A DNA stretch of 64,000 nt. It comes from Desulfarculaceae bacterium. Lineage in GTDB: Bacteria; Desulfobacterota; Desulfarculia; Desulfarculales; Desulfarculaceae. The stretch is taken from assembly GCA_021737645.1 (NCBI GenBank), contig JAIPDO010000007.1, positions 1-64,000 of the forward strand, given 5' to 3'. This document shows positions 6,043 to 29,272 of the stretch, piece after piece (the first letter of the stretch is position 1; every line of letters begins with the position of its first letter). Position numbers and translations under genes: made by a program. The notes beneath the pieces were generated by a model. The model was not told the DNA's origin, ran no database searches, and saw only the letters and a program-made list of their open reading frames with translations.

Positions 6043-6162
6043 ACCGCACCACCCGCTGGAGAGGCCTCTGCTTGGGCCAAAAGCCGATCATGGGAACCGA
6101 CGATTTCACAAATATCGAACGGCCGTCCCCCGGCAATATCATGAGGACGGCCGCTTTTTTGC

Positions 6163-11027: not shown

Positions 11028-12683
11028 TTAGATGGTTCGAACCGGCTGATACTCGCCAAATACCTCGCGCAGCACGCCGCAGATCTCGCCCAAGCTGGCG
11101 TAGGCCTCCACCGCCGCGATAATCACCGGCATCAGGGCTCCGTCGCCCTGGGCGTTTTGTTTGAGAGCGGCCAAGGCGCCGTCCACCTTGTCCTGGCTGC
11201 GCCGACTCTTCAGGGCTTGCAGCCGCTGAATCTGGTCCTGCTCCGCCTGGGGGTTGGACTCGACCAAAACCTCTTGCTCGTCTTCCTCGATGGCGTACTT
11301 GTTCACGCCCACCACCACCTGTTCGCCGAGCTCGACCTCTTTCTGAATATCGTAGGCCCGGCGCTCGATCTCTTTTTGCACGAAGCCCTTTTCGATGGCT
11401 TCCACCGCGCCGCCCATTTCCTGGACCTCGGCCATCAGCTCCTTGATGCGCGCGTAGAGCTGGTTGGTCAGGGCTTCCAGGTAATAGGAGCCGCCCATGG
11501 GGTCTATGGTGTCGGTGACCCCGGTCTCCTCGCGCAGTATCTGCTGAGTGCGCAGGCTGGTGCGCACCGATTCCTCGGTAGGCAGGCTGAGCGCCTCGTC
11601 GTAGGAGCAGGCGGCGATGGACTGAGCCCCGGCCAGCACCGCGGCCAGAGTCTGGTAAGCCACCCGCACCACGTTGTTCAGGGGCTGTTGGGCGGTCAGG
11701 CTGGCTCCGCTGGTCTGGGTGTGGAAGCGCAGCATGCACGAACGCGGGTCCTTGGCGCCAAAGCGGTCCCTGAGCATCTCGGCCCAGATGCGCCGGGCAG
11801 CCCGGTATTTGGCCACCTCTTCGAAAATCTTGTTGTTGGTGTTGAAAATCCAGCTGATGCGCGGAGCGAACTTGTCGATATCCAAACCAGCCTCAAGACC
11901 GGCCTCGATGTAGGCGATGGCGTTGCTGAAAGCAAAGGCTATTTCCTGTACCGCCGAACAGCCCGCCTCTCGCATATGGTAGCCGGCCACGTTGATGGTG
12001 TTGAAGCGCGGCGCGTTATTGCTGCAATAGGCGAAGATATCGGTGACCAGCCGGATGGACGGCTTGGGCGGGAAGATGTAGGTGCCCCGCACCGTGTACT
12101 CCTTGAGCACGTCGTTTTGCAGGGTGCCCCGCAGCACCTTGGGCTCCAGGCCCTGCTTCTTGCCGATGCTCACGTACATGGCCAACATGATGGCCGAGGG
12201 CGCGTTGATGGTCATGGAGGTGGAAAGCTTGTCCAGGGGCAGGCCCTCGAAGATAACCTCCATGTCCTCCAGGGTGTCAACCGGCACCCCCACCTTGCCC
12301 ACCTCTCCGGCGGACATGGGATGGTCCGAGTCGTAGCCGATCTGGGTGGGCAAATCGAAAGCCACGCTCAGGCCGGTCTGACCCTGCTCCAGCAGATAGC
12401 GGAAGCGGGCGTTGGTGTCTTTGGGCGAGTCATAGCCCGAATACTGGCGCACCGTCCAGGGGCGGCCCAGGTACATGCTGGGGTACACCCCGCGCGCAAA
12501 GGGATGCTCGCCGGGGAAGCCCAACTGCTCAAGGTAGTCCTGTTCCTGCACGTCGGCGGGAGTGTAGAGGCTCTCCACCGGGTCTCCCCAGTCGGTGTGG
12601 CGGGGAGACAACTTTGCCAGACCGGGGTCGCTTTGGGCCCACCTGGCTTTTTCTACTTTTATCTTGTTCTGGTCCATGGACAC
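11028..12683 (-). CDS. B12-dependent acyl-CoA mutase large subunit (methylmalonyl-CoA mutase family)
   Basis: 551 aa; YPSMYLGRPWTVRQYSGY, SVAFDLPTQIGYDSDHP, GYHMREAG, DPMGGSYYLE. Confidence 0.92.
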   Translation of the reverse strand: MSMDQNKIKVEKARWAQSDPGLAKLSPRHTDWGDPVESLYTPADVQEQDYLEQLGFPGEHPFARGVYPSMYLGRPWTVRQYSGYDSPKDTNARFRYLLEQGQTGLSVAFDLPTQIGYDSDHPMSAGEVGKVGVPVDTLEDMEVIFEGLPLDKLSTSMTINAPSAIMLAMYVSIGKKQGLEPKVLRGTLQNDVLKEYTVRGTYIFPPKPSIRLVTDIFAYCSNNAPRFNTINVAGYHMREAGCSAVQEIAFAFSNAIAYIEAGLEAGLDIDKFAPRISWIFNTNNKIFEEVAKYRAARRIWAEMLRDRFGAKDPRSCMLRFHTQTSGASLTAQQPLNNVVRVAYQTLAAVLAGAQSIAACSYDEALSLPTEESVRTSLRTQQILREETGVTDTIDPMGGSYYLEALTNQLYARIKELMAEVQEMGGAVEAIEKGFVQKEIERRAYDIQKEVELGEQVVVGVNKYAIEEDEQEVLVESNPQAEQDQIQRLQALKSRRSQDKVDGALAALKQNAQGDGALMPVIIAAVEAYASLGEICGVLREVFGEYQPVRTI

Positions 12684-12702
12684 AGCTCCGCTCTCCCGGC
12701 TT

Positions 12703-13110
12703 TCAGCTCAGGGACACGTTGTTCCTGATGAACTCGGCAATTTCGGTCATGGTGGTGCCGGGCCCGAAGATTTCCTTGACGCCTTTTTCCCTGAGGGCCA
12801 CGCGGTCCTTGGGTGGCACGATGCCCCCGGCCACCAACAGAATGTGGGCCGCGTCCTTTTCGCGCAATAGCTGGGCCACCCGGGGCAGGTGTTGGTTGTG
12901 GGCTCCGGACAAGGTGCTCAGGGCGATGACGTCCACATCCTCCTGCATGGCGGCGGCCACGATGGCTTCGGGAGTCTGGCGCAGGCCGGTGTAGATTACC
13001 TCCATGCCCGCGTCCTTGAGACCGGCGCAAACCACCTTTATGCCGCGGTCGTGCCCGTCCAGGCCGGGCTTGGCCGCCAGAACTCGAATACGTTTACTCA
13101 TGACTATCAA
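12703..13110 (-). CDS. cobalamin-binding small subunit of acyl-CoA mutase
   Basis: [13 protein letters not shown] (DxHxxG), [21 protein letters not shown]. Confidence 0.92.
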
Positions 13111-13134: not shown

Positions 13135-14676
13135 CTACAGGGGGACGTTGCCGTGCTTGCGCCACGGTTTGGGTTCCTGCTTGTCCTCCAGGGACTGGAG
13201 GGCCTGCACCAGATAGCGCCGGGTGTCGCCGGGCAGGATCACCGCATCCACATGCAGCTTTCTGGCCACGTTGTAGGGGTTGGCGAACTTCTCCCGGTAC
13301 TCCTCGATCTTGGCCTGGCGGGTGGCCTCGGGGTCGTCGGACTTGGCGATGTCCTTGGCGTAGACGATATCCACCGCGCCCTCGGCCCCCATCACCGCCA
13401 CCTCGGCCGAAGGCCAGGCCCACACCTGATCCGCACCCAACTGCTTGGAACACATGGCCTGATAGGCTCCGCCGTAGGCCTTGCGCAAAATGATGGTGAT
13501 CTTGGGGACCGTGGCCTCGGAGTAGGCGTAGATCATTTTGGCCCCGTGGCGGATGATGCCGCTGTACTCGTGCTTGACCCCGGGCAGATAGCCCGGCACG
13601 TCCACCAGGCTCACCAGGGGGACGTTGAAGGCGTCGCAGGTGCGAACGAAGCGGGCGGCTTTGTCCGAGGCGTCGCTGTCCAGGGCCCCTCCCAAATGGC
13701 GCGACTGGTTGGCGATGATGCCCACCGAGCGCCCGGCCACCCGGCCGAAGCCGACCACGATGTTGGGCGCGTACAGGGCCTTGATTTCCATGAAGTCGCC
13801 GCCGTCGACCAGGCGGGAGATGACCTCGCGCACATCGAAGAACTTTTTGCGGTCCTCGGGGATGAGCTTATGGATATCCTCGTCAAAGGGCGCCTCGTCC
13901 GAGGCGTCCAAGAGCGGAGGGGCGTTACGAGCGTTGCTGGGCAAGAAGGATAGCAGTCGCTTTGTCTGCTCCAGGCAGTCATGGTCGTCCTTGGCGGCCA
14001 GGTCGCAGTTGCCCGATATCTTGGTGTGGATGCGTGGCCCGCCCAGTTTTTCCATGGTCACGTCTTCGCCGGTGACCGACATGATGACCTTGGGGCCGGT
14101 GATGAACATGTATGAGGTCTTTTTGACCATGAACACGAAGTCGGTCATGGCCGGCGAATAGACCGCGCCACCGGCGCAGTTGCCCATGATCAGAGAGATC
14201 TGGGGCACCACCCCGCTGGCATTGACGTTGCGCTTGAAGATGAGGCCGTACCCGGCCAGGCCCTCTGCGCCTTCCTGCACCCTGGCCCCGGCCGAATCGT
14301 TTATGCCCACGATGGGGGCCCCGGCCTTGACCGCCAAGTCCATGATGGTGCAGATCTTCTGGGAGTGCATGTCCCCCAAGCTGCCGCCCATTACCGTGGC
14401 GTCCTGGGCAAAAGCGAAGACCGTGCGGCCGTCCACCTTGCCGTAGCCGGTCACCACGCCGTCGCCGGGCATATGTTTTTCTTCCAGGCCAAAATCGCGG
14501 CAGGTGTGGTCGGTCAACAAGCCCACCTCGATGAAGGTGTCCTTGTCGAACAGGAAGTCCAAGCGCTCCCGGGCGGTGAGCTTGCCTTTGGCGTGCTCCC
14601 GCTCGATGCGCTTGATCCCGCCTCCCAGACGATGCTCTTGGTTCTTCTGCTCGAGCTGCTCGATGAAATGATCCAT
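13135..14676 (-). CDS. acyl-CoA carboxylase/decarboxylase carboxyltransferase (propionyl-CoA carboxylase beta-like)
   Basis: 513 aa; INDSAGARVQEG, GNCAGGAVYSPA, DVPGYLPGVKHEYSGIIRHGAK, RKAYGGAYQAM. Confidence 0.9.
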   Translation of the reverse strand: MDHFIEQLEQKNQEHRLGGGIKRIEREHAKGKLTARERLDFLFDKDTFIEVGLLTDHTCRDFGLEEKHMPGDGVVTGYGKVDGRTVFAFAQDATVMGGSLGDMHSQKICTIMDLAVKAGAPIVGINDSAGARVQEGAEGLAGYGLIFKRNVNASGVVPQISLIMGNCAGGAVYSPAMTDFVFMVKKTSYMFITGPKVIMSVTGEDVTMEKLGGPRIHTKISGNCDLAAKDDHDCLEQTKRLLSFLPSNARNAPPLLDASDEAPFDEDIHKLIPEDRKKFFDVREVISRLVDGGDFMEIKALYAPNIVVGFGRVAGRSVGIIANQSRHLGGALDSDASDKAARFVRTCDAFNVPLVSLVDVPGYLPGVKHEYSGIIRHGAKMIYAYSEATVPKITIILRKAYGGAYQAMCSKQLGADQVWAWPSAEVAVMGAEGAVDIVYAKDIAKSDDPEATRQAKIEEYREKFANPYNVARKLHVDAVILPGDTRRYLVQALQSLEDKQEPKPWRKHGNVPL

Positions 14677-14685
14677 GACCCCGCC

Positions 14686-15840
14686 CTAGAATCCACACTC
14701 TTTGGAGATGACGATGCGTTGCACCTCAGAGGTGCCCTCTGTCACGGTGTACAGGCGGCCGTCGCGCCAGTGACGCTGGATGGGGTACTCCATCATGTAG
14801 CCGTAGCCGCCATGGATCTGCATGCCGGTGTTGGTGATATTCTGCAGAAGCTCGGCGCAGAACAGCTTGACCATGGAGGATTCCTTCTTCACGTTGGCCC
14901 CGGCCTCGTACAAACGAGCCACCCGCCACACGTAGGTGCGCATCACGTCGATGTAGGTGGCCATCTCGGCCAGTTTGAAGGAGGTGTTCTGGAACTTGAT
15001 GATGGGCTTGCCGAACTGAACCCGTTGCTTGGCGTACTCCACGCTGAGGTCGTAGGCCGCTTGCGCGGTGCCCAGGCAGCGGGCTCCGTAGGTGATGCGC
15101 CCGGAGATCAGGATGTCCTCCAGTTGCTGGAAGCCACCGCACTCCTTGCCGCCGATGAGGTTTTCGGCCGGTACCCGGCAGTCCTCGAACACCAGTTCGC
15201 CGGTCTCGGCGGCGTGGTTGCCCACCTTGTCCAGCTTCTTGCTCACCGTGAAGCCCGGGGTGCCCTTGTCCACCAGGAACAGGTTGATGCCCAGGCCCCG
15301 TTTGTCGGGCTGGGTGTAGGCGGCCACGATCACGTAATCGCAGATGGGCGCGTTGGTGATGAACATCTTGGTGCCGTTGATCACGTATTCGTCGCCATCG
15401 CGCACCGCGCGGGTCTGAATGGAGGCGGCGTCGGAGCCCACGTTGGGCTCGGTAAGCCCGAAGGCTGCGATTTTTTTGCCCTGGATGGCCGGAATCAGGT
15501 ACTTCTCTTTTTGTTCCTGGGAGCCGTGCAGAAAGATGGGCATGGTGCCAAGGCCGCTGTGGGCCACGATGGCCCCGCAGAAACCGGCGTTTATCCGGCA
15601 AACCTGCTCGATCATGATGCACTCGCTGAGCTTGTCCGCGCCGCCGCCGCCCAACTCTTCGGGGTAGCGGGGGCACAAAAAGCCCATCTCGGCCATCTTG
15701 GTGAACAGAGCCAGGGGAGTGTGCCCCGTCTCTTCAGCCTCGTCTACCATGGGGGCCAAGACCTCGTCGGCGAAGTCGGCCATCATATCCTGGAATATTC
15801 TCTGCTCTTCGGTGAGCTCGGAGGTGTTGTATTGCATCAC
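14686..15840 (-). CDS. acyl-CoA dehydrogenase
   Basis: FGLTEPNVGSDAAS, QIHGGYGYMMEYPIQRHWRDGRLYTVTEGTSEVQR. Confidence 0.92.
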   Translation of the reverse strand: MMQYNTSELTEEQRIFQDMMADFADEVLAPMVDEAEETGHTPLALFTKMAEMGFLCPRYPEELGGGGADKLSECIMIEQVCRINAGFCGAIVAHSGLGTMPIFLHGSQEQKEKYLIPAIQGKKIAAFGLTEPNVGSDAASIQTRAVRDGDEYVINGTKMFITNAPICDYVIVAAYTQPDKRGLGINLFLVDKGTPGFTVSKKLDKVGNHAAETGELVFEDCRVPAENLIGGKECGGFQQLEDILISGRITYGARCLGTAQAAYDLSVEYAKQRVQFGKPIIKFQNTSFKLAEMATYIDVMRTYVWRVARLYEAGANVKKESSMVKLFCAELLQNITNTGMQIHGGYGYMMEYPIQRHWRDGRLYTVTEGTSEVQRIVISKECGF

Positions 15841-15889: not shown

Positions 15890-16675
15890 TTACTTGCCCT
15901 GGAATTTCGGCTCACGTTTTTCAAACAGCGCCTTGATGCCCTCTTGGCGGTCCTCGCTGGTGAACAGCAGGCACTCCACCATGGCCTCGTAATCCAGCCC
16001 GGCCCTGAGCCCGGTTTCCTGGGAGGCGTTGATGGCCTTTTTGGCCCATTTGAGGGCCAGGCTGCTCTTGGCCGCGATTTTTTTGGCCACGGCCATGACC
16101 TGCTCCTCAAGCTCATCCGCCGGGTAGACCTGGTTGACGATACCCAAGCGCAGGGCCTCGTCGGCCTTGATGAACTCGCCGGTGAAGATAAGCTCCTTGG
16201 TCTTGGCCACCCCCACCAAGCGGGGCAGGCGCTGGGTGCCCCCGCCTCCGGGCATGATGCCCAGGCGTATCTCGGGCAGGCCCATCAGGGAGCGATCCGA
16301 GGCAAAGCGCAGGTCGCAGGCCAGGGCGAACTCAAGCCCGCCGCCCAGGCACAGGCCGTCGATCATGGCGATCACCGGGCGGTCCAGGCGCTCGAACTGG
16401 GAGTAGAAACCCTGTGCAAGGGTGTCCATGAAGTTTTCCATGTCCAAGGGGCTGTACTTGGCCAGTTCCTTGACGTCCGAGCCGGCCACGAAGGCCTTGT
16501 CACCGGCCCCGGACACCACCAGAACCCTTATAGACGGGTCACCCTGCACCTTGGCCAACACGTCGGCCATTTCCAGGCGGGCGGCCCGGTTGAGGGCGTT
16601 GCGCACCTCGGGCCGGTTGATGACGAGTTGGCCGATGCCCTCCCGGACCTCAAAAATGATGTTTTGATACTCCAT
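15890..16675 (-). CDS. enoyl-CoA hydratase/isomerase
   Basis: FVAGSDVKEL, GGGLEFALACDLRFAS, GIMPGGGGTQRLPRLVG; ORF trimmed to MEYQNIIFEV start. Confidence 0.9.
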   Translation of the reverse strand: MEYQNIIFEVREGIGQLVINRPEVRNALNRAARLEMADVLAKVQGDPSIRVLVVSGAGDKAFVAGSDVKELAKYSPLDMENFMDTLAQGFYSQFERLDRPVIAMIDGLCLGGGLEFALACDLRFASDRSLMGLPEIRLGIMPGGGGTQRLPRLVGVAKTKELIFTGEFIKADEALRLGIVNQVYPADELEEQVMAVAKKIAAKSSLALKWAKKAINASQETGLRAGLDYEAMVECLLFTSEDRQEGIKALFEKREPKFQGK

Positions 16676-16902: not shown

Positions 16903-17616
16903 CTATTGGTAAAATCCGGTTTCTTGACGATATTCCAGGGCGCGGGTTATTCGTTGCTTGCTGGCCGCGATGTGCTTGCTGGTGGTTTCGATCGCGGTTT
17001 GGGCGTCTCTCCTGCCCAGGGCATCCAATATTTTCCGGTGCTCGGCGGATACTTCCCGCACTTGGGGCGCTTCCAAATATTCAGGGGGGTATTTCAGGTA
17101 CAGTTTTTCATAAATATCGCCGAGCATGGTGTTAATGACATCGTTGCCCGAGTATTCGGCCAGCTTAAGATGGAAGCGTGCATCCACCAAAATGATCTTC
17201 CGGTTGGGGCCACCCGCGGCTTCACGGTTGTATTTGCGAAAAAGAACCTTGATTTCCTCGATGTCCGACATGGTGATGTTCTCGATGATCTGGGGGATTA
17301 TGTAGCGTTCAAGAGCCTCGCGGGCCTCGTAGAGTTCCATGGCTTCTTCTTGGGTGATCTCACCCACGAAATACCCTTTATTGGGTATGTAGTTGACAAA
17401 GCCGTTGGCCTCCAGGCGATTGAGGGCCTGAATCACCGGAGTGACGCTGGTATCGATTCGTTTGCTTAGGTCGCTGTAAATAATTTTTTGGCCGGGCGCC
17501 AGCTGGTTCAGGTAGATCATGTTTTTGATACGCCTGTGGGCCTCCTCGATGGCCATGCCCCTTTTGCCCGTTGTTATCCCTTGGCCTTTGCTTTTTACAG
17601 CCATTTTGTTTATCAC
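16903..17616 (-). CDS. GntR-family (FadR/FCD) transcriptional regulator, paralog 1
   Basis: winged-HTH with TSVTPVIQALNRLEANGFVNYIPNKGYFVGEI plus C-terminal FCD-like helical domain; start could be internal (MAVKSKG). Confidence 0.88.
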   Translation of the reverse strand: MINKMAVKSKGQGITTGKRGMAIEEAHRRIKNMIYLNQLAPGQKIIYSDLSKRIDTSVTPVIQALNRLEANGFVNYIPNKGYFVGEITQEEAMELYEAREALERYIIPQIIENITMSDIEEIKVLFRKYNREAAGGPNRKIILVDARFHLKLAEYSGNDVINTMLGDIYEKLYLKYPPEYLEAPQVREVSAEHRKILDALGRRDAQTAIETTSKHIAASKQRITRALEYRQETGFYQ

Positions 17617-18000: not shown

Positions 18001-19203
18001 GTGGCGGTTATAAACCAGTTGCAGGCTCAACTTAAGTACTTGGACACGCTAGATTTCTATCGCCGCAAGTTCCAGCAGGCCTCTGTGGATACTGGGAAAG
18101 TCAAATCCCTGGAGGATTTTCAAAAGCTCCCCTTCACCACATCCAAGGAATTCCAGGCGGAAATACAAAAGCCCCCGTCCGGGTGTTCCCTGTACAGCCC
18201 CGAGGTAACCAGGGTGAACCTCTCCCCTTCCGGTCAGGAGCTATACCCGGTCTACCAAACCAATAAAGACCTGGAATTCATGCACCAGGTCTGCGCCCGA
18301 TCCTTGAAGGCGGCCGGAGTGACCCCTCAGGACATGGTGGCGGTCACCTTCGGATATCATTTGTTTATTGCCGGTCTTTTCTATCAGGGTCAGTTTGAAT
18401 ACTACGGCTCCAAGGTCATCCCTCTGGGGCCCGGCGAGTCTACCCGCGCGGTGCAGCTGATCAACGACTACCAAATCGGGGTGCTGATATCCAACCCAAC
18501 ATTTGCCATGAAGCTGGCCGAGGCGGGCATCCCCTCGGTGCACACCATCTTCGTGGGTGGCGAGCCCTTCACCTCGGTGCAGGGCTATCCCGAAAAGGTG
18601 CGCGCCGCCTTTGAACGGGACATCACCATCATCGACTCCTACAGCATGGCCCTGTGCATGCCCATCGCCCGTTCCTGCCGCCACGACAACGGCCTGCACA
18701 TCATGGACGAGTTCGTCTACACCGAGGTCATAGACCCGGCCACCGGCGAGCCCGTGCCCTTGGGCGAAAAGGGCGAATTGGTGCTCACCCACCTGCACAA
18801 ACAAGCCGCTCCCCTGCTTCGCTACCGCACCGGCGACCTGACCATGCTGGAGAACAAAACCTGCGCCTGCGGACGCGAACTGACCATGCCCCAAAGCGTA
18901 ATTGGACGCACCGACGACATGCTCAAAATCAAGGGCGTCAAGTTCTGGCCCAGCCAACTCGCCACCATTTTGCGCAGCTACCCCCAGTTCTCGCCCCAGT
19001 ATCGGCTGGTGGTGGACTCCCTGAAGGGAGTGGACACCTTGTCCCTGGTGGTGGAGGGCAAAACCGATGACGCGCCGGTGTTGGACAAGCTGGCCACCCA
19101 TCTCAAATCCGAAACCCTGCTCAAGTTCAATGAGATCAGGATCACCGAGAAGCTCGAAGATGGCCCCAGCGTGGTGGACAAGCGCAAGGGGCGATCCTTT
19201 TAG
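18001..19203 (+). CDS. phenylacetate-CoA ligase (PaaK)-like AMP-binding protein with atypical P-loop
   Basis: LLRYRTGDLTMLENKTCACGR, VIGRTDDMLKIKGVKFWPSQL; GTG start preceded by ggaaaggagc RBS. Confidence 0.8.
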   Translation: MAVINQLQAQLKYLDTLDFYRRKFQQASVDTGKVKSLEDFQKLPFTTSKEFQAEIQKPPSGCSLYSPEVTRVNLSPSGQELYPVYQTNKDLEFMHQVCARSLKAAGVTPQDMVAVTFGYHLFIAGLFYQGQFEYYGSKVIPLGPGESTRAVQLINDYQIGVLISNPTFAMKLAEAGIPSVHTIFVGGEPFTSVQGYPEKVRAAFERDITIIDSYSMALCMPIARSCRHDNGLHIMDEFVYTEVIDPATGEPVPLGEKGELVLTHLHKQAAPLLRYRTGDLTMLENKTCACGRELTMPQSVIGRTDDMLKIKGVKFWPSQLATILRSYPQFSPQYRLVVDSLKGVDTLSLVVEGKTDDAPVLDKLATHLKSETLLKFNEIRITEKLEDGPSVVDKRKGRSF

Positions 19204-19517: not shown

Positions 19518-20318
19518 ATGTCCAGGACAGTAGACAACCGCGGCTACAGCAAGCTTCTGTTTGAGCAAGAAGACTCCGTGCTCAAGGTAATGATCAACAT
19601 TCCGGAAAAACGCAATGCCCTGGATATGGAGATAAGGCCACAGCTACTGGAGGTGCTCCAGGGACTGCAAAACGACTCCTCGGTGCGGGCGGTCATTCTG
19701 GCAGGCGCGGGCGCGCACTTTTGCGCCGGCGGCGACCTGCGCTCCATGCAGGAAGTAAACGGCCCGGTGGCCGCCTACGACCGCCTGAAAAACGGCCACC
19801 GCCTGGTGCGGGCCATGGTCGAGTTGCCCAAGCCAATCATCACCTCTGTGGACGGCGTGGCCGCCGGCGCCGGGGTGAGCCTGCTCTTGGCTTCGGACCT
19901 GAGCATCGTCTCCGATCGAGCCAAGTTCTTCTTCTCATTTGTCAAGGTGGGCCTGGCCCCGGACTGGGGGCAGTACTTCTTCCTACCCCAAAGAGTGGGC
20001 ATGGCCCGCACCAAGCAGTTGATGATGGAAGGCGGCTCTCTCACCGCCCAGGAGGCCCTGGACGCGGGCATGATCAACCGTATCGCCCCTCATGAAGAGC
20101 TTGAGGAGCAGACCTGGGCCTGGGCCCATAGCCTGTCTCAAGGCGCCACCAAGGCCCAGGTCCTTATAAAGGCCGCCCTCAACTGCTGGCCCATGAACCT
20201 GTCCAGCTATCTGGAACTGGAGGCCAACATCCAGGCCGTGGCCCTGTCCAGCGAGGACCACCAGGAGGGGCGTGACGCCTTCTTGGAAAAGCGTAAACCC
20301 AATTTCCAGGGAAAGTAA
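19518..20318 (+). CDS. enoyl-CoA hydratase/isomerase
   Basis: FCAGGDLRSM, GAGVSLLLASDLSIVS; C-terminal EGRDAFLEKRKPNFQGK. Confidence 0.9.
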   Translation: MSRTVDNRGYSKLLFEQEDSVLKVMINIPEKRNALDMEIRPQLLEVLQGLQNDSSVRAVILAGAGAHFCAGGDLRSMQEVNGPVAAYDRLKNGHRLVRAMVELPKPIITSVDGVAAGAGVSLLLASDLSIVSDRAKFFFSFVKVGLAPDWGQYFFLPQRVGMARTKQLMMEGGSLTAQEALDAGMINRIAPHEELEEQTWAWAHSLSQGATKAQVLIKAALNCWPMNLSSYLELEANIQAVALSSEDHQEGRDAFLEKRKPNFQGK

Positions 20319-20406: not shown

Positions 20407-21513
20407 ATGAAGCAGTTGCGATTTATCAAATGTGATTATTCTTACGCCGATTTTTCCACCAGCATTTCTCCGGCGGTTGAAAAGGGCTTGGACAGCGGAG
20501 TCGCACCCAACACGGTGTTGCTCAACGTGTTCAGCACCGACAGCATTACCTCGGGCTATCTCGACGACCCGGAAAAGGCCATCGATCTGGAATATTGCGC
20601 TCAGGCGGGCATCGTGGTGCGCCGCCGCCAAAACACCGGCGGCGCGGTGTTCGGACCCAAGGGCGGCGCCTTCCTGTGCCTGTACCTGAACCCCAAGGAG
20701 ATGGGCGTCCCACTCACCAACATCAAGGACGCTTTCCGCGTTTCGCTGACTGCCATAGCCGAGGCCCTCAAGGAACTTTGGGGGCTTGAGGCGCTCTACC
20801 GCCCGCTAAACGACGTGGAGGTGGAGGGCCGCAAGGTGGTGCCCAGTTCGGCCCGTTTGGAAAAAGGCATCCTGAGCCTGCGCCTGTTGATCAATGTGGT
20901 CAACACCGACCGGGACGTGCTGCGCAAGGCCATCATCACCAACCCGGTGAAGGTGCAGGACAAGGCCATCAAGGATATCGGCCAGCGGTTTACCAGCCTG
21001 GAAAACGAGTTGGGCCGTGAAATCACCGCGGACGACCTGGAAGACCTTTCCCGCCTGACCATCCACAAGATGTTCGGGGGCGAAATATCCCTGGCCCCTG
21101 GCGAGTTGACCGCTCAGGAAGAAGGCTTTCTCAAGGACTACCAGGCCACCTACAACTCGGAAGACTGGTTCTACGGCAACTCCGAACGACTGCGCTTCAG
21201 CCAGGCCCCGGCCGATGCGCTCAAAAGCGAAGGATGTCAAAAGGCCGTGGCCGGACTTTTGCGGGTCACCCTGTTGAGCAAAAACAACCTCATTGAAGAC
21301 CTGATCGTGACCGGCGACTTCCACCCCTCCCCCTACCGCGTGACCCTGGATATAGAAGACGCCCTGCGTGGCAAGCCCTGTGACTTGAATGTGGTGCGCA
21401 AGGAGTTGGAGCAGATTTACGCCCTCCCGGATGTTGAGATGACCGGCATTGAAATAGACGACTTTCTGGCCGCCTTTGCCAAGGCTTTCGGTCGGGAGGC
21501 CGCTGGTTGCTGA
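20407..21513 (+). CDS. lipoate-protein ligase A-like protein (BPL/LPL catalytic domain), paralog 1
   Basis: GIVVRRRQNTGGAVFGPKGG, RPLNDVEVEGRKVVPSSARLEKG; ATG 20407 preceded by ggag. Confidence 0.82.
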   Translation: MKQLRFIKCDYSYADFSTSISPAVEKGLDSGVAPNTVLLNVFSTDSITSGYLDDPEKAIDLEYCAQAGIVVRRRQNTGGAVFGPKGGAFLCLYLNPKEMGVPLTNIKDAFRVSLTAIAEALKELWGLEALYRPLNDVEVEGRKVVPSSARLEKGILSLRLLINVVNTDRDVLRKAIITNPVKVQDKAIKDIGQRFTSLENELGREITADDLEDLSRLTIHKMFGGEISLAPGELTAQEEGFLKDYQATYNSEDWFYGNSERLRFSQAPADALKSEGCQKAVAGLLRVTLLSKNNLIEDLIVTGDFHPSPYRVTLDIEDALRGKPCDLNVVRKELEQIYALPDVEMTGIEIDDFLAAFAKAFGREAAGC

Positions 21514-21606
21514 GCCGCTTCAGCTGGCGGAAAAATTGGACCGCCAGGGTGGCGGGCATTAACTCAGGCCCAGTTAAGAATTCAAGACCATTGGAGGTTG
21601 CATCCC

Positions 21607-22002
21607 ATGAGTGAAAAATATGCCAAGTACATCGTCTCCGAGCCCAAGATCATCGACGAATTCGCGGCGCATGCCAAGGGCAAATACCAGATATTGATGG
21701 ACGGTGAGATGGTGCCCGGGGCCAACTTCTTCATCGCCGGCGGCATTCACACCAAGATTCACCAGGCAGAGCCCATCACCATCAAGCATCACCACGAGCA
21801 GAGTGAAGCATATCTGTTCATCAGCAAAAAGGGTGACGCGGAGATCGAGATGGAGATAGAGGACGAGACCTACACCGTGACCACGCCCGCCTCGGTATTT
21901 ATTCCGGCGGGCCTGAAACACACCTATCGTTACAAAAGAATCGACGGACCTCTTACTGTGGTAGCTATCGTGCAGAGTGGGGAATACGTACCAATCGGTT
22001 AA
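21607..22002 (+). CDS. small cupin-domain protein
   Basis: HHHEQSEAYLFISKKG...FIPAGLKHTYRY cupin motifs; RBS ggagg 9 nt upstream of ATG. Confidence 0.85.
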   Translation: MSEKYAKYIVSEPKIIDEFAAHAKGKYQILMDGEMVPGANFFIAGGIHTKIHQAEPITIKHHHEQSEAYLFISKKGDAEIEMEIEDETYTVTTPASVFIPAGLKHTYRYKRIDGPLTVVAIVQSGEYVPIG

Positions 22003-22021
22003 TCGCTCGACAACCGTCAAG

Positions 22022-22057
22022 GCCCCCGCCACTCCCCGCTGGCGGGGGCTGTTTTTT
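22022..22057 (+). terminator. Rho-independent terminator after cupin gene
   Basis: perfect 10-bp stem gcccccgcca/tggcgggggc followed by tgtttttt. Confidence 0.8.
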
Positions 22058-22091
22058 ACCCGGCGCGGCTCACCCGGCCCCCCTGCCCTGC

Positions 22092-22463
22092 CTAGCCGCT
22101 TTGCCGGCGCTGGCAGTCACGCACCGCCCGGTGCAGGGCCAGGGACACCAGGCGGGCGCAAGGCCACTTATCTTCCGGAAGCCCAGCCTGTTCCCGTGCC
22201 AGGGCCTCACCATCCACCGCCAAAGCCTCGGCGGGAGTGCTCCCCATAACCATCTCGGTGATCCAGGAGGCCATGGCCACTGCGGCCCAGCAGCCGTGGG
22301 TGGTGAAGGAAGCCCGGTTGATGCACCCGTCCTTCATCTGAATATACAGCACCACCTGGTCGCCGCAGGTGGGCCCCACCACTTCGCCCACCCCGTCGGC
22401 AGAGGGGATCACCCCTTGGTTGCGGGGCGAAACGATATGCTCTTTTATCAAATCCGAAAGCAT
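22092..22463 (-). CDS. NifU/IscU-like Fe-S cluster assembly scaffold protein
   Basis: PTCGDQVVLYI, THGCWAAVAMASWITEMVMG, KWPCARLVSLAL: three cysteines in NifU_N/IscU positions. Confidence 0.82.
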   Translation of the reverse strand: MLSDLIKEHIVSPRNQGVIPSADGVGEVVGPTCGDQVVLYIQMKDGCINRASFTTHGCWAAVAMASWITEMVMGSTPAEALAVDGEALAREQAGLPEDKWPCARLVSLALHRAVRDCQRRQSG

Positions 22464-22490
22464 GTCATTGCCCCGTCTCCTTTGGCCGCC

Positions 22491-23585
22491 CTAGAGCTGC
22501 TTCAGGCCCTTGCCCAGCAAGGTGGCGAAGTCGCTCAACTCGGCGCCGGGGATCTCCACCCCCGGTGCGTTGTACACCTCATCTACCCTGGCCATCAGGG
22601 TGTCCAGGTCCAGGGGCTGCCCGCGCAAGGCCTCCTCCAAAGTTCCCATAACCGAGTAGGGGCTGGGGTGGAAGTCGGCCAAAAGGATTATGTCGTGGAC
22701 CTTGCCGTCCAGGGCCAACAGAGCCAGGCCCATGAGTCCGGCGGGGGCCTTGTGATAGGCCTCCGCCCGGAGAGCGGCCGGGTCGGCACCCGCGAAACGC
22801 ACCCGCTCGCTGTTGCCGTAATACCATTCTTCAGAGCCGAATCGCTCCAGGTAGTCCTCCAGGTATTGTTGCTCCGTGGGCGTCAGCTCGCCTTCTGCGA
22901 TCTCCAGGTCCTGGCCAAAAGCCCTTTGCATGGTGCCGGTGGCCAGGGCGTATATTTCCTCGCGCTCTATGGGACGGCCCACCTCGTCCTGAAAGCAGGT
23001 AAACCGGGCGCCGCCATCTTTTTGTACTTTGTCCTGGAATTTCTCCGGCCGGGCGATGATGGCCCCGGACATGAGGGAGCGGTCCACGGGGACGACGTTG
23101 ATCACGCTGCGCAAGGTGAGGATGCCTTTTTCCAGGCGGGCCGAGGTGGCCACCAATTTGCGACTGCCCACCTCGATGTCGTTTACCGGACGATAGCGGG
23201 CGTCTATACCGAACAACTCGCTGGTTACTTGGGCCATGCGATCTAAAAAGTAGGGAAAGGCCTCGCGGATGGTCTTGAAAGGCATCCAGGGCTGGCTCAG
23301 GTCCAGATATAGACAATTCATAACCGAACCCTGGTTGGCGAATATCGCGCCCCCGGCGTTTAGCCGCCGCCGCACCACGATGCCCTTTTCCCGGCAAAAA
23401 TCCAGGTGCAGGGACTTTTCCGGATCTTCCAGAACGCCGGTGGTTATGCTGTCGGCGGAGAAAAAGTTGACCACCAGTGTGCTGGGAGCCTTTTTCTCCT
23501 CCAGGCTTTTTTCCACGGCCGGCGAAAGGCTGGTGGACAAATCCGCATAGCTGTAGTCGGTCTTTAGCAGGCGTAGGTACCCCAT
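22491..23585 (-). CDS. lipoate-protein ligase A-like protein, paralog 2
   Basis: GIVVRRRLNAGGAIFANQGS, RPVNDIEVGSRKLVATSARLEKG; strong full-length similarity to 20407..21513. Confidence 0.82.
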   Translation of the reverse strand: MGYLRLLKTDYSYADLSTSLSPAVEKSLEEKKAPSTLVVNFFSADSITTGVLEDPEKSLHLDFCREKGIVVRRRLNAGGAIFANQGSVMNCLYLDLSQPWMPFKTIREAFPYFLDRMAQVTSELFGIDARYRPVNDIEVGSRKLVATSARLEKGILTLRSVINVVPVDRSLMSGAIIARPEKFQDKVQKDGGARFTCFQDEVGRPIEREEIYALATGTMQRAFGQDLEIAEGELTPTEQQYLEDYLERFGSEEWYYGNSERVRFAGADPAALRAEAYHKAPAGLMGLALLALDGKVHDIILLADFHPSPYSVMGTLEEALRGQPLDLDTLMARVDEVYNAPGVEIPGAELSDFATLLGKGLKQL

Positions 23586-23601: not shown

Positions 23602-24777
23602 TTAACTGGCGGACTCTTGCTCTTTGGCGAATTCTTGGTAGTGCTCTCTCTGCACCACCAACTTCATTATCTCGTTGGTACCCACAGCGACCATCCCTCC
23701 GCGGATGTCGCGGAAGTGCCGCTCCATGTCGTGCTTGGTAGTGTAGCCGATGCCTCCCATTACCTGAAGGGCCTCGTTGGCCACCCAATAGGAGTTTTCC
23801 GCGGCAAAGCCCTTGGCCATGGCCGCCACCTTGGTCACGTCCTGGCCCATGTCCAGCATGCGCGCTGCCTTGAAGCGAAGCAGGTTGGCCGCCTCCAAAC
23901 GGGTGGCCATCTCCGCCACCTTGAAGCTCACGCCTTCGAAGTTGCGGATGGGCCGGTGGAAGGCCTCGCGCTCCATGGTGTAGGCGGTGGCGATCTCCAG
24001 GCAGGTGCGGGCGGTGCCCAGCAGGCCGCTGGCCACCAAAATGCGCTCGCTGTTGAGCATATCCATTAGGATGGGGAAACCTTGGCCCCGTTGTCCGATG
24101 AGGTTATCCTGGGGTATCTCGGTGCCGTCGAAGATCAGTTCCGAAACGATGCGCAGCCCCCGCCAGCCCATGGTATCGAACTCTTCCATGGCCACGATGC
24201 CCGGCGCGTCCTTTTCCACCGCAAACACGCTCATGCCCTTACTAGGGTGCACGTCCGGCTCGGTCATGGCAAACACCACGAACAGATCGGCCACCGCACC
24301 GGAGGCCTGGAATCGCTTCTCGCCGTTGATGACCCACTTGTCGCCCTTGAGTTCCGCCTTGGTCTTCATGCGGACCGCATCCGAACCACCGGTGGGCTCG
24401 GTGATGCATTCAGCGGTAAGCAGGTCGGCGGTGAAAATGCCGGGCAGGTATTTTTGCTTCTGCTCTTCGCTGCCATAATTGGCGATGATGAAAGCGCAGT
24501 GGTGGGGCACGCTACGGGCGCAAGCCAGGGCGTAGGACTGGGCGGCGGTTTCTTCGTTGACCAGGGCCTCGTGCATCATGTCCAATCCCCCTCCGCCATA
24601 GCGGGCGGGAAAACGGACGCCGATGTAACCCTGCTTACCCATTTTCTTTAGCAGTTCAAAGGGATACTCATTTTCTCGGTCCATGGCCAAAATGTGAGGA
24701 CGAGCCTCCCGCTTGAAAAACTCCCTCGCCTCAAGGGCATAGGCCTGTTCCTGCTCGCTCAAAAAAATGGATTCCAT
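23602..24777 (-). CDS. acyl-CoA dehydrogenase (catalytic Glu apparently at helix-G position)
   Basis: CITEPTGGSDAVRMKT, MGGIGYTTKHDMERHFRDIRGGMVAVGTNEIMK; NSERILVASG. Confidence 0.9.
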   Translation of the reverse strand: MESIFLSEQEQAYALEAREFFKREARPHILAMDRENEYPFELLKKMGKQGYIGVRFPARYGGGGLDMMHEALVNEETAAQSYALACARSVPHHCAFIIANYGSEEQKQKYLPGIFTADLLTAECITEPTGGSDAVRMKTKAELKGDKWVINGEKRFQASGAVADLFVVFAMTEPDVHPSKGMSVFAVEKDAPGIVAMEEFDTMGWRGLRIVSELIFDGTEIPQDNLIGQRGQGFPILMDMLNSERILVASGLLGTARTCLEIATAYTMEREAFHRPIRNFEGVSFKVAEMATRLEAANLLRFKAARMLDMGQDVTKVAAMAKGFAAENSYWVANEALQVMGGIGYTTKHDMERHFRDIRGGMVAVGTNEIMKLVVQREHYQEFAKEQESAS

Positions 24778-24932: not shown

Positions 24933-24947
24933 TAACGCATTGCGCGA
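24933..24947. promoter_or_regulatory. candidate operator TAACGCATTGCGCGA overlapping the IclR start codon
   Basis: same core as 17862..17876; additional half-site TAACGCA at 24913..24919, exactly 20 bp upstream. Confidence 0.6.
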
Positions 24948-25728
24948 CAGAAAGTTTATCCAATCCGTAGGCAAAGCCATTGCCATAATGGAACTATTTG
25001 GCAGTTCCCCCGAACCTCTGTCCCTCACCCAGATAGCCGAACGTCTGGAAACCAACAAGACCACGGTGCAGCGTTTCCTCTATACCCTGATGGAACTGGG
25101 CTATGTGCGCATCCTCACCGGAAAGCGCTACATGCTGGGCAACAAGGTGCTCAGTTTGGCTTTTCAGTTTTTGCACAGCGAGGGCGTGTTCAGCATCGCA
25201 CGCCCTTACCTTGAAGATCTGTCCAACAGCCTGGAACGCAGCGTAAGCATGGGTGTGTTGGACGGCGCCGAGGTGTTGGTGATTTTCCGCAAGGAACGCA
25301 CCCGCTACTATCCATTCGCGGTGTATGTCGGTTCTCGGGTGCCCGCCCACTGCACCACCATGGGGAAAGTACTTTTGGCCTCCCTGCCCACGGACAAAGC
25401 CAAGGAACTCCTGGACCAGATGAACTTATTCAAGGTAACCCCCAACACCGTGGTTAATAAGAACGGAATCATAAAGGACCTCAAAGCCACCAGAGACCGG
25501 GGTTATGCCATTTCCGACGGAGAGTTTTCTCTGGATCTTTATTCCATTGGGGTCCCTCTGCTCAATCACGAAGGTCAAGTAGTGGCCTCGGTGGCGCTTT
25601 CTCTAAACACCAGCGACAAGCCGGTGCAAAAGACCGTTGATAAAGCATTGGACAAACTGTTTCAAACCGGAAAAGTGATATCCCAGGGTCTAGGTTACGA
25701 AGGCTCGTACCCGGTAATTCCATCTTAG
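24940..25728 (+). CDS. IclR-family transcriptional regulator
   Basis: AIMELFGSSPEPLSLTQIAERLETNKTTVQRFLYTLMELGYV HTH; TTG start with gagg 7 nt upstream. Confidence 0.88.
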   Translation: MRDRKFIQSVGKAIAIMELFGSSPEPLSLTQIAERLETNKTTVQRFLYTLMELGYVRILTGKRYMLGNKVLSLAFQFLHSEGVFSIARPYLEDLSNSLERSVSMGVLDGAEVLVIFRKERTRYYPFAVYVGSRVPAHCTTMGKVLLASLPTDKAKELLDQMNLFKVTPNTVVNKNGIIKDLKATRDRGYAISDGEFSLDLYSIGVPLLNHEGQVVASVALSLNTSDKPVQKTVDKALDKLFQTGKVISQGLGYEGSYPVIPS

Positions 25729-26065
25729 AAATACAACTTTGAGCGCCCGGATAGCCTTTACTCCCCTATTTGCTTGATGTAACCAAGGGGTAATAATTTT
25801 GAGGGCTGTTTTTTCCAATTTTTGCCGCTTGATTATCAACACTCCGCCCAGTGCCGCTCAATTCACCCACACCTGTGTCGGGTGGAGCACCCTTGTGCCT
25901 CCGTTGTGCGCCGCGGCAAACATCGCATCTCAACCACATAGAGTTTCCAACTCAATAACCAACCGTTGGATTAAACCTTCGTTGCGGGTCCCACTCAAAA
26001 ACTAAGTCGAACCCGGAACGGGGGGAGTGCATAGGATTGTTTTCATGAACCAGGAGGGAAAGATC

Positions 26066-27220
26066 ATGAGAAACTTAGTCAAAAAGAAAATTATCTTTAT
26101 TCTGGGTGCGATCTTGGCACTGGCCTTGGCCTCCGCGCCGGGCGCCTGGGCAGGCGACAAGGTGGCGATGCCCAAAACCATGGTGTGGAGCTGCTACGAC
26201 GTAGGCTCGTCAGGCTACATGCAGGCCTCGGCCATCGCCGATGCCTTTGGCAAGAAGTTCGGCATGCGCATCCGCCTGCTGCCTTCGGGCACCTCCATCG
26301 GCCGTTTGATGCCCCTGACCGCCAACCGGGTGGCCTGCGGCTTCCTGGCCAACGAGGTGTACTTTGCGGCGGAAGGCCTTTATGACTTCGCCACCGTGCA
26401 GTGGGGTCCCCAGGACCTCCGGGTGATCCTGGCCCACCCGGCCACCATCGCCTTGGCCACCACCAAAGAATCGGGCATAAAGAGCTTCAAGGACCTCAAG
26501 GGCAAGCGGGTGTCCTATATCCCCGGCGCTCCCACCCTCAACGTCAAAATGGACGCCTTCTTGGCCTTCGCCGGCCTGACCTGGAAGGACGTGCAAAAGG
26601 TGGAGTTCCCCAGCTATGCCTCTTCCCTTAAGGCTCTCATCGAGGGCAAGACCGACGCTTCGGTAACCGTCACCTCGGCCTCCATCATGTACGAGCTGGA
26701 GACTTCCTCCCGCGGCCTCTACTGGATTCCGTTCGACCCCAAGGACAAGGCCGCCTGGAAGCGCATGACCAAGGTTGCCCCCTTCCTGGCCCCTGCCCAG
26801 GAAACCATCGGCGCGGGCATCTCCCCGGAAAAGCCCGTGTGGCTGGCTGAGTACCGCTACCCCATGATCACCGTGTACGCCAACAAGGACGCCAACTGGG
26901 TTTACAACATGGCCAAGGCCATGGACGAAACCTTTGACCTGTACAAGAGCGCCCATAAGGTCATGCCCCTGTGGAACATCAAGAAGTCCGGTAACCCTCC
27001 GGCAGACGCCCCCTTCCATGAGGGCGCCATCCGCTACCTGAAAGAAAAGGGTGTGTGGACCGCCGAGGCCCAGGCATGGAACGACGGGCGCGTGGCTCAC
27101 ATGAAGAAGCTCCAGGCTGCCTGGGAAAAGGCCCTGGATGAAAAGACGGCCAAGAAAATCAAGGAAAAGAAGTTCGGGGAGTTCTGGCTCAAGATTCGGG
27201 CCGAGGCCTTGGCCAAATAA
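26066..27220 (+). CDS. TAXI-family TRAP transporter solute-binding protein
   Basis: signal peptide MRNLVKKKIIFILGAILALALASAPGAWA; SSGYMQASAIADAFGKKFGMRIRLLPSGTSIGR. Confidence 0.88.
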   Translation: MRNLVKKKIIFILGAILALALASAPGAWAGDKVAMPKTMVWSCYDVGSSGYMQASAIADAFGKKFGMRIRLLPSGTSIGRLMPLTANRVACGFLANEVYFAAEGLYDFATVQWGPQDLRVILAHPATIALATTKESGIKSFKDLKGKRVSYIPGAPTLNVKMDAFLAFAGLTWKDVQKVEFPSYASSLKALIEGKTDASVTVTSASIMYELETSSRGLYWIPFDPKDKAAWKRMTKVAPFLAPAQETIGAGISPEKPVWLAEYRYPMITVYANKDANWVYNMAKAMDETFDLYKSAHKVMPLWNIKKSGNPPADAPFHEGAIRYLKEKGVWTAEAQAWNDGRVAHMKKLQAAWEKALDEKTAKKIKEKKFGEFWLKIRAEALAK

Positions 27221-27328: not shown

Positions 27329-29272
27329 ATGTCCGACATGCCGCGTGAAAGCATTAAACCGATGCGGGTCAGGTCCTCTAAGGTGGTGTACATATTGGCC
27401 GCCGTCCTGTCCGTGCTGGGCACCCTGTTGTGCATCAACCAGATCTTCCACCTGAAGATCGGCGGATTCATGCCCATAGGCAACGCCTACTACTACTACA
27501 TCTTGGCCACTTACCTTTCCCTGGTCTTTTTGCTCTTCCCAGGCAGCAAGGCAGGCAACGTCAAGGTCATGTGGTACGACTGGGCCCTGTTCTTCCTGAG
27601 CGTGAGCATCAACTTGTACCTGGGAGCCAACGCATACAACATCCTCACCAAGGGATGGGAATTTGCCGCCCCCAGCCTGCCCACCTTGGCCAGCGGCATG
27701 CTTTGTCTCCTGGCCCTGGAAGGAGTGCGGCGAGCCGGCGGTGGCTCCCTGTTCTGGATATGCCTGGGTTTTTCCGTTTACCCATTGTTTGCCGGATACA
27801 TGCCCGGCTTCCTCTGGGGCAACGAACTGAGCCTCATGGAAACCGTGCGCTACCACGCCATGGGCGTGGAAAGCATAATCGGCATACCCACTCGGGTGGT
27901 GGGCAACCTGCTGATCGGCTTCATCATCTTCGGAGTGGCCCTGGTCTCCACCGGCGGGGGCAAGTTCTTCATGGACTTTGCCATGTCCCTAATGGGGCAC
28001 AGCCGGGGCGGGGCGGCCAAGGTCTCGGTCATCTCCAGCGCCTTCATGGCCAGCCTCAGCGGCAGCGTGATTTCCAATGTGGTCACCACCGGCGCAATGA
28101 CCATTCCGGCCATGAAAAAAACCGGCTACAGCCCCGTATGGGCCGCATCGGTTGAGGCCTGCTCATCCACCGGCGGCTCCATCATGCCTCCGGTCATGGG
28201 CGCGGCGGGTTTTTTGATCGCCTCTTTTTTGAATGTGCCCTACGCCGTGGTGATGCTGGCCGCTTTCTTCCCGGCCTTTTTGTATTACTTCACCCTGCTG
28301 TTGCAGGTGGACCTGCATGCCGTGTCCCACAACATGGGAGGCATGCCCAAGGACCAGCTCCCGCGCTTCGGAGAAACCATGCGCAAAGGCTGGTTTTTCC
28401 TGGGCACCATCTTCCTGCTGGTATTCATACTTTTTTACATGCGCACCGAGGCCTGGGCGCCTTTCTTTGTAATGATATTCCTGTTCACCTGCTCCATGCT
28501 ACGCCGTGAGACCCGCCTCAATCTGCGCAGCTTCATCGGCTTTTTGGTGGATTCGGGCCGTTTGCTGGCCCAGATCGCGGGCATCCTGGCCGGCGTCGGG
28601 CTTATCATCGGAGCCCTGTCCTGCACCGGCGTGGCCAACTCCTTCAGCCGAGAGCTGGTGCTCTACGCCGGAGGCAACGTGGCTCTGCTGTTGATCTTCG
28701 GCGCGCTCACCAGCTTCGTGTTGGGTATCGGCATGACCGTGACCGCATGCTACGTATTTTTGGCCATCGTGCTGGTCCCGGCCCTGGTGGGCGTGGGGCT
28801 CAACGAAATGGGAGCCCACCTTTTCGTGCTCTATTGGGGCTGCCTGTCCTACATAACCCCGCCGGTGGCCCTGGGCGCCATCACCGCCGCGGCCATTGCC
28901 GGCTCCGACCCCATGAAGACGGGCTTCTTGTCCATGCGCCTGGGCTCGGCCAAATACATCGTGCCCTTCTTGTTCGTACTCAATCCCGCCATGATCATGG
29001 ACGGCACACCGGGCGAAGTAATTCCCACGATCATCTCATCCTTGATCGGGTGCGTCCTCTTGGCCGGCAGCTTGGAAGGGCATCTCTACGGCTTCGGCAA
29101 ACTGCCCTGGGTGTACAGAGGCCTGCTTTTCTGCACGGCCTTCTTGTTCCTATTCCCCCATCTGCCTACCGACCTGGCGGGCGTAGCGCTGTTGATTGCG
29201 CTTTACATCTTGGCCAAAATCGGGCCTTTTAAACTGGATCGGAGTTTGCAAACTCCGCAAAACGCCGGTTAA
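27329..29272 (+). CDS. TRAP transporter fused permease (DctQM-type)
   Basis: 647 aa hydrophobic protein; GGSIMPPVMGAAGFLIA, GIGMTVTACYVFLAIVLVPALV, YITPPVALGAITAAAIAGSDPMKTG. Confidence 0.9.
   Translation: MSDMPRESIKPMRVRSSKVVYILAAVLSVLGTLLCINQIFHLKIGGFMPIGNAYYYYILATYLSLVFLLFPGSKAGNVKVMWYDWALFFLSVSINLYLGANAYNILTKGWEFAAPSLPTLASGMLCLLALEGVRRAGGGSLFWICLGFSVYPLFAGYMPGFLWGNELSLMETVRYHAMGVESIIGIPTRVVGNLLIGFIIFGVALVSTGGGKFFMDFAMSLMGHSRGGAAKVSVISSAFMASLSGSVISNVVTTGAMTIPAMKKTGYSPVWAASVEACSSTGGSIMPPVMGAAGFLIASFLNVPYAVVMLAAFFPAFLYYFTLLLQVDLHAVSHNMGGMPKDQLPRFGETMRKGWFFLGTIFLLVFILFYMRTEAWAPFFVMIFLFTCSMLRRETRLNLRSFIGFLVDSGRLLAQIAGILAGVGLIIGALSCTGVANSFSRELVLYAGGNVALLLIFGALTSFVLGIGMTVTACYVFLAIVLVPALVGVGLNEMGAHLFVLYWGCLSYITPPVALGAITAAAIAGSDPMKTGFLSMRLGSAKYIVPFLFVLNPAMIMDGTPGEVIPTIISSLIGCVLLAGSLEGHLYGFGKLPWVYRGLLFCTAFLFLFPHLPTDLAGVALLIALYILAKIGPFKLDRSLQTPQNAG

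Follow-up and report, generated by a model that had tools for sequence, protein, structure and literature searches.

The window analysed here is a stretch of 64,000 nucleotides from a Desulfarculaceae bacterium (assembly GCA_021737645.1, contig JAIPDO010000007.1, positions 1 to 64,000 of the forward strand; labelled C66 in the analysis), in which two genes, here called A and B, whose products are similar to the lipoate-protein ligase LplA (which joins the vitamin-like cofactor lipoate to proteins), face each other across a small cupin gene and a gene for a NifU-like protein. Genes for a PaaK-like homologue of AMP-ligases, an enoyl-CoA hydratase/isomerase family protein (ECH2), A and the cupin lie on the plus strand and converge on a minus-strand unit encoding an acyl-CoA dehydrogenase (ACAD2), B and the NifU-like protein, which is close-packed (16 bp between ACAD2 and B, 27 bp between B and nifU). 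The original prediction, made from the letters of the window, had described A and B as paralogs enclosing a cupin and a three-cysteine NifU-like protein. Both enclosed genes are there, the limits given for the two ligase-like open reading frames are exact, and the paralogy is borne out by 172 identical residues of 361 (48%; 68% similarity, no gaps, E=2e-121).

The motifs quoted for the pair are found in both proteins, as is the noted departure from the RRxSGGGAV and KISG consensus: the loops read RRQNTGGAV and RRLNAGGAI, and the lysine of KISG is kept while ISG is gone. WxYGNSER, by contrast, was not a hallmark of the pair, as alignments show it to be the ordinary W-x-Y/F-G-x-S stretch of LplA. 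The pair-specific marks are NTGGA/NAGGA in place of SGGGA, K-V-V-P-S-S/K-L-V-A-T-S in place of K-I-S-G, and an arginine at position 159.

Both proteins match the Pfam domain LplA-B_cat (PF21948; E=5e-22 for A and 3.9e-17 for B). The C-terminal domain PF10437 scores 24.6 bits in A, just above the 24-bit cut-off, and 13.2 bits in B, below it. An AlphaFold2 model of A (pLDDT 91.8, pTM 0.85) has the complete two-domain LplA fold, and its best solved matches in Foldseek are all lipoate-protein ligases, with 18-20% identity. The octanoyltransferases LipB/LipM have a single domain and a catalytic Cys/Lys dyad, and A differs from them in its C-terminal domain, present both by sequence and in the model. 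A and B share with E. coli LplA, M. hyopneumoniae Lpl (6jom) and Listeria LplA1 (8cri) the two-domain fold, the RR and GGA motifs, the N-D pair, the catalytic lysine and the adenylate loop, but differ from them in the marks given above (Arg159 stands where LplA has His149) and in having no lipoyl genes nearby. Both fail the NCBIfam lipoate ligase model TIGR00545 (cut-off 280 bits), with 79 bits for A and 58 for B; the genome's ligase linked to LipS genes is also under this cut-off (125 bits).

A tree of 65 LplA-like proteins, drawn from a profile search of 395 genomes of the phylum, separates a 35-member branch that includes A and B from 30 lipoate-type proteins, with a support of 100/97 for the split. 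The lipoate-type side holds all 27 sequences with LipS, LipT or GcvH neighbours together with three unlabelled ones, and the A/B side holds all 29 sequences with transport or acyl-CoA neighbours together with six unlabelled ones. Counted uniformly over five genes on either side, LipS1/S2, LipT or GcvH genes accompany 26/28 lipoate-type genes and 0/33 of the branch (Fisher 3e-15), and TRAP or ABC transport or acyl-CoA genes accompany 4/28 and 27/33, respectively (Fisher 1e-7); the two sets were collected deliberately, and these values describe the contrast and are not strict p-values. Some branch members stand in same-strand arrays with complete DctPQM (L152-L156) or TAXI-TRAP (L099) genes. A scan of all phyla for A/B-like motifs, limited to two short motifs, gave matches from this phylum only, and a search of the open-access literature returned no paper that links LplA-like proteins to TRAP transporters or CoA ligases. 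The A/B branch is separate from the lipoate-type ligases and hitherto undescribed, and occurs in sulfate-reducer-type bacteria. Its position beside genes for acid uptake and breakdown suggests that A and B probably activate an acid other than lipoate.

Two other gene arrangements were seen within the branch. A conserved protein of about 98 residues is encoded beside LplA-like genes of the L100/L104 type (L101:5300, L104:5397, L151:5454) and has no Pfam or NCBIfam match in the copy checked (L104). In L050 (220-3880), an A-type gene is followed after 4 bp by a histidine-kinase-like gene and a sigma54-type response-regulator-like gene.

Pocket positions were taken from the published M. hyopneumoniae Lpl pocket (PMC7186572) and aligned onto A and B. 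The AMP and catalytic positions R73, N135, D136, K143, K182 and K186 are retained throughout the branch, with glycine at 135 in one subclade. The tunnel positions 76, 148, 157 and 159 differ from those of the lipoate types and vary by subclade. A, B and the two nearest subclades (f24 and g97) have Asn or Thr at 76, Ser at 148 and, in 19/19 sequences, Arg159, whereas position 159 of the lipoate types is Gln in the LplA-DUF116 proteins (18/18) and His (six) or Val (five) in the GcvH-linked ones. The catalytic lysine and position 159 are 16 residues apart in both A and B, the same spacing as from Lys133 to His149 in E. coli LplA, and the examined tunnel positions are near-identical between the two paralogs. 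Because a buried arginine occupies what was once a greasy tunnel, the substrate is suggested to have a polar tail, for example a second carboxylate. Elsewhere in the branch, a variant called A' lacks one loop arginine and the L100/L104 type lacks the GG motif.

The original prediction noted that no lipoyl-domain protein or lipoate synthase was in the window and proposed searching the genome for lipoyl domains and LipA. The genome encodes eight GcvH-like proteins (contigs C14, C26, C96, C32, C4, C111, C108 and C39; L121-L128) and two LipA (G000:C64:77702 and C39:31124), all on other contigs, and C66 encodes neither GcvH nor any biotin/lipoyl domain. Several of the GcvH-like genes cluster with an apparent FAD-linked dehydrogenase and a CCG-type Fe-S protein, unlike glycine cleavage. 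The LplA-like genes of the genome number four, A and B included. The third, on C28, encodes an LplA-DUF116 fusion and stands beside LipT-like, LipS1 and LipS2 genes (L042:4414-9013), with NCBIfam scores at this locus of 211 and 223 bits, below the cut-offs of 230 and 270; the gene order is that of the LipS1/LipS2/sLpl(AB) pathway (PMC10332631). The fourth, on C27, is next to an Fe-S gene of a type also seen with GcvH-like genes. Both routes to lipoate are therefore represented, LipS1/LipS2/LipT with the LplA-DUF116 fusion and the two LipA. With these separate ligase loci on C28 and C27, and from their position in the tree, A and B are ruled out as the housekeeping LplA. The sLpl(AB) ligases are likewise dedicated LplA homologues within a pathway cluster (PMC10332631, PMC6067878), the host's own being that on C28, but A and B lie across the 100/97 split from them and have no LipS1/S2, LipT or LbpA/GcvH neighbours.

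Conservation of the neighbourhood, which the original prediction had proposed as a check, was examined in relatives, many of them metagenome-assembled genomes (MAGs), with genes called by a simple in-house script. A is present in G011 and in 6/8 genomes of the genus (its own included), and these six also carry B. The genes for the PaaK-like protein, ECH, ACAD, cupin, NifU and TAXI-TRAP are found again, with rearrangements, in five further members of the genus and in two Desulfobacteraceae-type genomes. In the latter MAGs (L052/L053), one contiguous run encodes the mutase, HMG-CoA-synthase-like/OB protein, thiolase, ECH, ACAD1, cupin, A', PaaK-like protein, ACAD2, B, NifU, TAXI protein and TRAP permease; A', here in the place of A, is about 31-34% identical to A and has lost one loop arginine. 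G053, which belongs to a different family of the class, has an A'-type gene directly beside ACAD1, with mutase, HMG-CoA-synthase-like/OB and thiolase genes close by. NifU adjoins B in 8/8 B loci examined, but for the coupling to Fe-S delivery raised in the original prediction no candidate client protein emerged. These recurring gene sets rule out a chance or scattered neighbourhood. The heteromer of A and B that had been considered is, if obligate, unsupported, as A occurs without B in G105 (98% complete), and in L052/L053 the partner of B is A'.

The PaaK-like protein encoded upstream of A keeps the PaaK fold, RTGD and GRTDDM (GRxDxM in phenylacetate-CoA ligase) but has SPSGQELYP in place of the P-loop SSGTTGKP and SYSMAL in place of YGLxE. 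All 15 full-length proteins of this variant (nine of the operon type and six of family f24) lack the P-loop and the Glu of YGxxE and keep RTGD, and about 20 ordinary PaaK homologues from the same searches have both motifs intact. A sixteenth (L178/L096) has lost the P-loop and is a fragment joined to sequence of a TRAP permease; its frame (L096:1266-2483) runs into the permease, either as an assembly chimera or as a true fusion. The PaaK-like gene of L199 (G011:C161:4356-5549) has a single in-frame TGA. The variant can probably no longer bind ATP, judging from these motifs. A and the variant PaaK are carried by the identical seven of 60 relatives (hypergeometric 2.6e-9), and in a profile search of 395 genomes across the phylum there were 14 carriers of A/B/f24-type LplA and 12 of variant PaaK, with 10 in common (2.9e-15); these statistics, like those for gene context, treat genomes as independent and ignore kinship.

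Table 1 Features of the window around the LplA-like genes A and B, with coordinates in window positions.
Feature	Position	Strand	Basis and remarks
LplA-like paralog A, 368 aa	20407..21513	+	Pfam; AlphaFold2 model, Foldseek
LplA-like paralog B, 364 aa	22491..23585	-	Pfam, sequence alignment
Small cupin	21607..22002	+	Weak Pfam cupin/MannoseP_isomer matches; orthologues 70-94% identical; adjoins A or A' in loci checked
Terminator-like hairpin between convergent cupin and nifU	22021..22050	+	11-bp stem, T run; consensus match only
NifU_N/IscU-like protein, three Cys	22092..22463	-	PF01592, E=2.7e-25
Acyl-CoA dehydrogenase ACAD2	23602..24777	-	Domain match, neighbourhoods
PaaK-like AMP-ligase homologue, lacking P-loop and YGxxE Glu	18001..19203	+	Motifs; PaaK fold
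Enoyl-CoA hydratase/isomerase family protein ECH2	19518..20318	+	Domain match
IclR (PcaR-like) regulator	24940..25728	+	Domain match
TAXI TRAP solute-binding protein	26045..27220	+	TIGR02122, above cut-off
TRAP permease	27329..29272	+	Position beside TAXI protein; stays with cluster in relatives
GntR/FCD regulator	16903..17556	-	Domain match
Enoyl-CoA hydratase ECH1	15890..16675	-	Domain match
Acyl-CoA dehydrogenase ACAD1	14686..15837	-	Domain match; conserved in L052/L053, G053
MmdA-type carboxyltransferase	13135..14676	-	Domain match
B12-dependent mutase, methylmalonyl-CoA mutase type	11028..13101 (large 11028-12677, small 12703-13101)	-	
HMG-CoA-synthase-like protein, C-terminal OB fold	9578-10981	-	Pair with thiolase kept in L052, L053, G053
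Thiolase	8377-9564	-	Paired with HMG-CoA-synthase-like gene also in L052, L053, G053
Ordinary FadD	4522-6012		

With its mutase, MmdA-type carboxyltransferase, thiolase, HMG-CoA-synthase-like/OB protein and ACADs (Table 1), the cluster looks suited to taking a substituted acid through beta-oxidation to succinyl- or propionyl-CoA. The large subunit of the mutase has QY and RGTY, which we take to be residues of methylmalonyl-CoA mutase, and a mutase of the 2-hydroxyisobutyryl-CoA type is not favoured for this reason. Beta-oxidation of the BbsAB/benzylsuccinate type employs a thiolase with an OB-fold partner, acyl-CoA dehydrogenases, hydratases and methylmalonyl-CoA mutase, and the window has counterparts of each by NCBIfam match, but here the thiolase partner is HMG-CoA-synthase-like with the OB fold, and LplA-like, NifU and cupin genes are added. 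The usual active-site Cys region of this partner reads LGNSLRSG, so the protein may assist the thiolase without being catalytic itself. The three cysteines of the NifU_N protein are conserved in the aligned orthologues, and the protein scores under the IscU/NifU equivalog cut-offs; no cysteine desulfurase was recognised among the neighbouring called genes, no search aimed at desulfurases having been made.

We tentatively propose that A and B belong to a new branch of the LplA fold whose members adenylate a carboxylate, probably a polar one, that has been imported for catabolism as a CoA thioester, a reading we hold with less than even confidence. The TAXI-TRAP system would import the acid, possibly a dicarboxylic one; A (and B) would form the acyl-adenylate with ATP; the acyl group would pass to CoA, assisted in the A clade by the neighbouring PaaK homologue; and ACAD, ECH, thiolase, mutase and MmdA would then break down the acyl-CoA. 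This agrees with the option, raised in the original prediction, that another acyl group is attached, the favoured one of those listed there. Because the variant PaaK without an ATP loop co-occurs with A, the two could constitute a split acyl-CoA synthetase, in which the LplA-fold enzyme makes the adenylate of the TRAP-imported acid and the PaaK homologue the CoA thioester, and would belong to a broader LplA-fold ligase family whose branches serve various transported acids; this fuller scheme is rather unlikely as it stands. In mammals, activation and transfer of lipoate are divided between ACSM1, of the ANL family, and LIPT1, which has the LplA fold; in the present case it is the ANL protein that seems blind to ATP, which would swap the roles.

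Several observations weigh against activation of an acid for transfer to CoA. We know of no LplA-fold enzyme that uses CoA as the acceptor. AMP-ligases beside other members of the branch (L097, L098, L041 and L086 4189) have ordinary P-loops, and the rule that every AMP-ligase neighbouring an LplA-like gene is dead was dropped, the P-loops of the FadD-type neighbours being normal. An ordinary FadD is encoded in the window itself, and L085 (identical to the L053 contig) has a PaaK-like gene of the ordinary kind downstream. Loss of the P-loop need not abolish adenylation, and the AlphaFold2 model of the PaaK-like protein has pLDDT <50 at both altered loops. The LplA-like/DctPQM arrays of L154-L156 have no recognised catabolic gene alongside. 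In family f24 the A-type and PaaK-like genes share genomes and are not adjacent; the f24 PaaK neighbours are a histone-deacetylase-family gene, a gene for a 163-residue protein and, in some loci, ECH.

That the f24 variant PaaK adjoins a histone-deacetylase-family gene and not LplA keeps alive the principal rival, in which A and B are protein-lysine acyl ligases that adenylate a catabolic acid and place it on a lysine of a partner protein, either a carrier or enzymes under feedback, from which deacylases could remove it. Lysine is the natural acceptor for enzymes of the LplA fold, and each ligase type has a small neighbour of its own (the cupin with A, NifU with B, the 98-residue protein with the L101/L104/L151 type). 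The deacetylase-family gene stands next to or near the f24 PaaK-like gene (L203-L207), and in L092 such a gene (5609-6370) lies about 4 kb from an LplA-like gene; acyl-lysine marks are reported in acyl-CoA-degrading syntrophs (PMC9676460). But the cluster encodes no carrier domain, the f24 deacetylase gene has no adjoining LplA-like gene, and the P-loop-less PaaK would be left unexplained; we consider lysine acylation possible, if on the unlikely side. A purely regulatory role, the fold binding substrate or adenylate as a pathway sensor or scaffold, would suit the subclades that have lost the loop arginine (A') or the GG motif (L100/L104 type) and the kinase-like and regulator-like genes within 4 bp of the A-type gene of L050; it is improbable, since the catalytic lysine, the N/D pair and the adenylate-loop lysines kept throughout the branch would be difficult to account for if ATP chemistry were absent.

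Lipoylation of a distant carrier, which the original prediction had entertained, has become less likely because none of 33 branch members lies near lipoyl genes and the lipoyl tunnel is altered. A and B as diverged lipoate ligases acting on one of the eight GcvH-like proteins would account for the retained fold, catalytic lysine and adenylate site in a genome with two routes to lipoate, but the separate branch, the scores of 79 and 58 against 280 bits and the habit of dedicated ligases to sit with lipoyl genes make this very unlikely. We give an equally low probability to a division of labour in which A and B would activate different acids or intermediates of one pathway: A is tied to PaaK, ECH2 and cupin and B to ACAD2 and NifU, and the two occur independently, but their tunnels are almost alike at the positions examined. 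What stands of the original prediction is an uncharacterised, ligase-like pair with no housekeeping role in a conserved neighbourhood, neither of its two refuting outcomes (scattered genes, or a housekeeping LplA among the pair) having come about; the distant carrier has lost ground, and an obligate heteromer is unsupported.

A database would label A and B lipoate-protein ligases, which is probably wrong. If adenylation of an imported acid by these proteins is correct, the lipoate-ligase fold would have been recruited to carbon catabolism and diversified acid by acid beside TRAP transporters, giving a new class of carboxylate-activating enzyme and accounting for a CoA ligase that has lost its ATP loop. 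The A/B cluster also provides a way to test how uncultured Thermodesulfobacteriota degrade acids.

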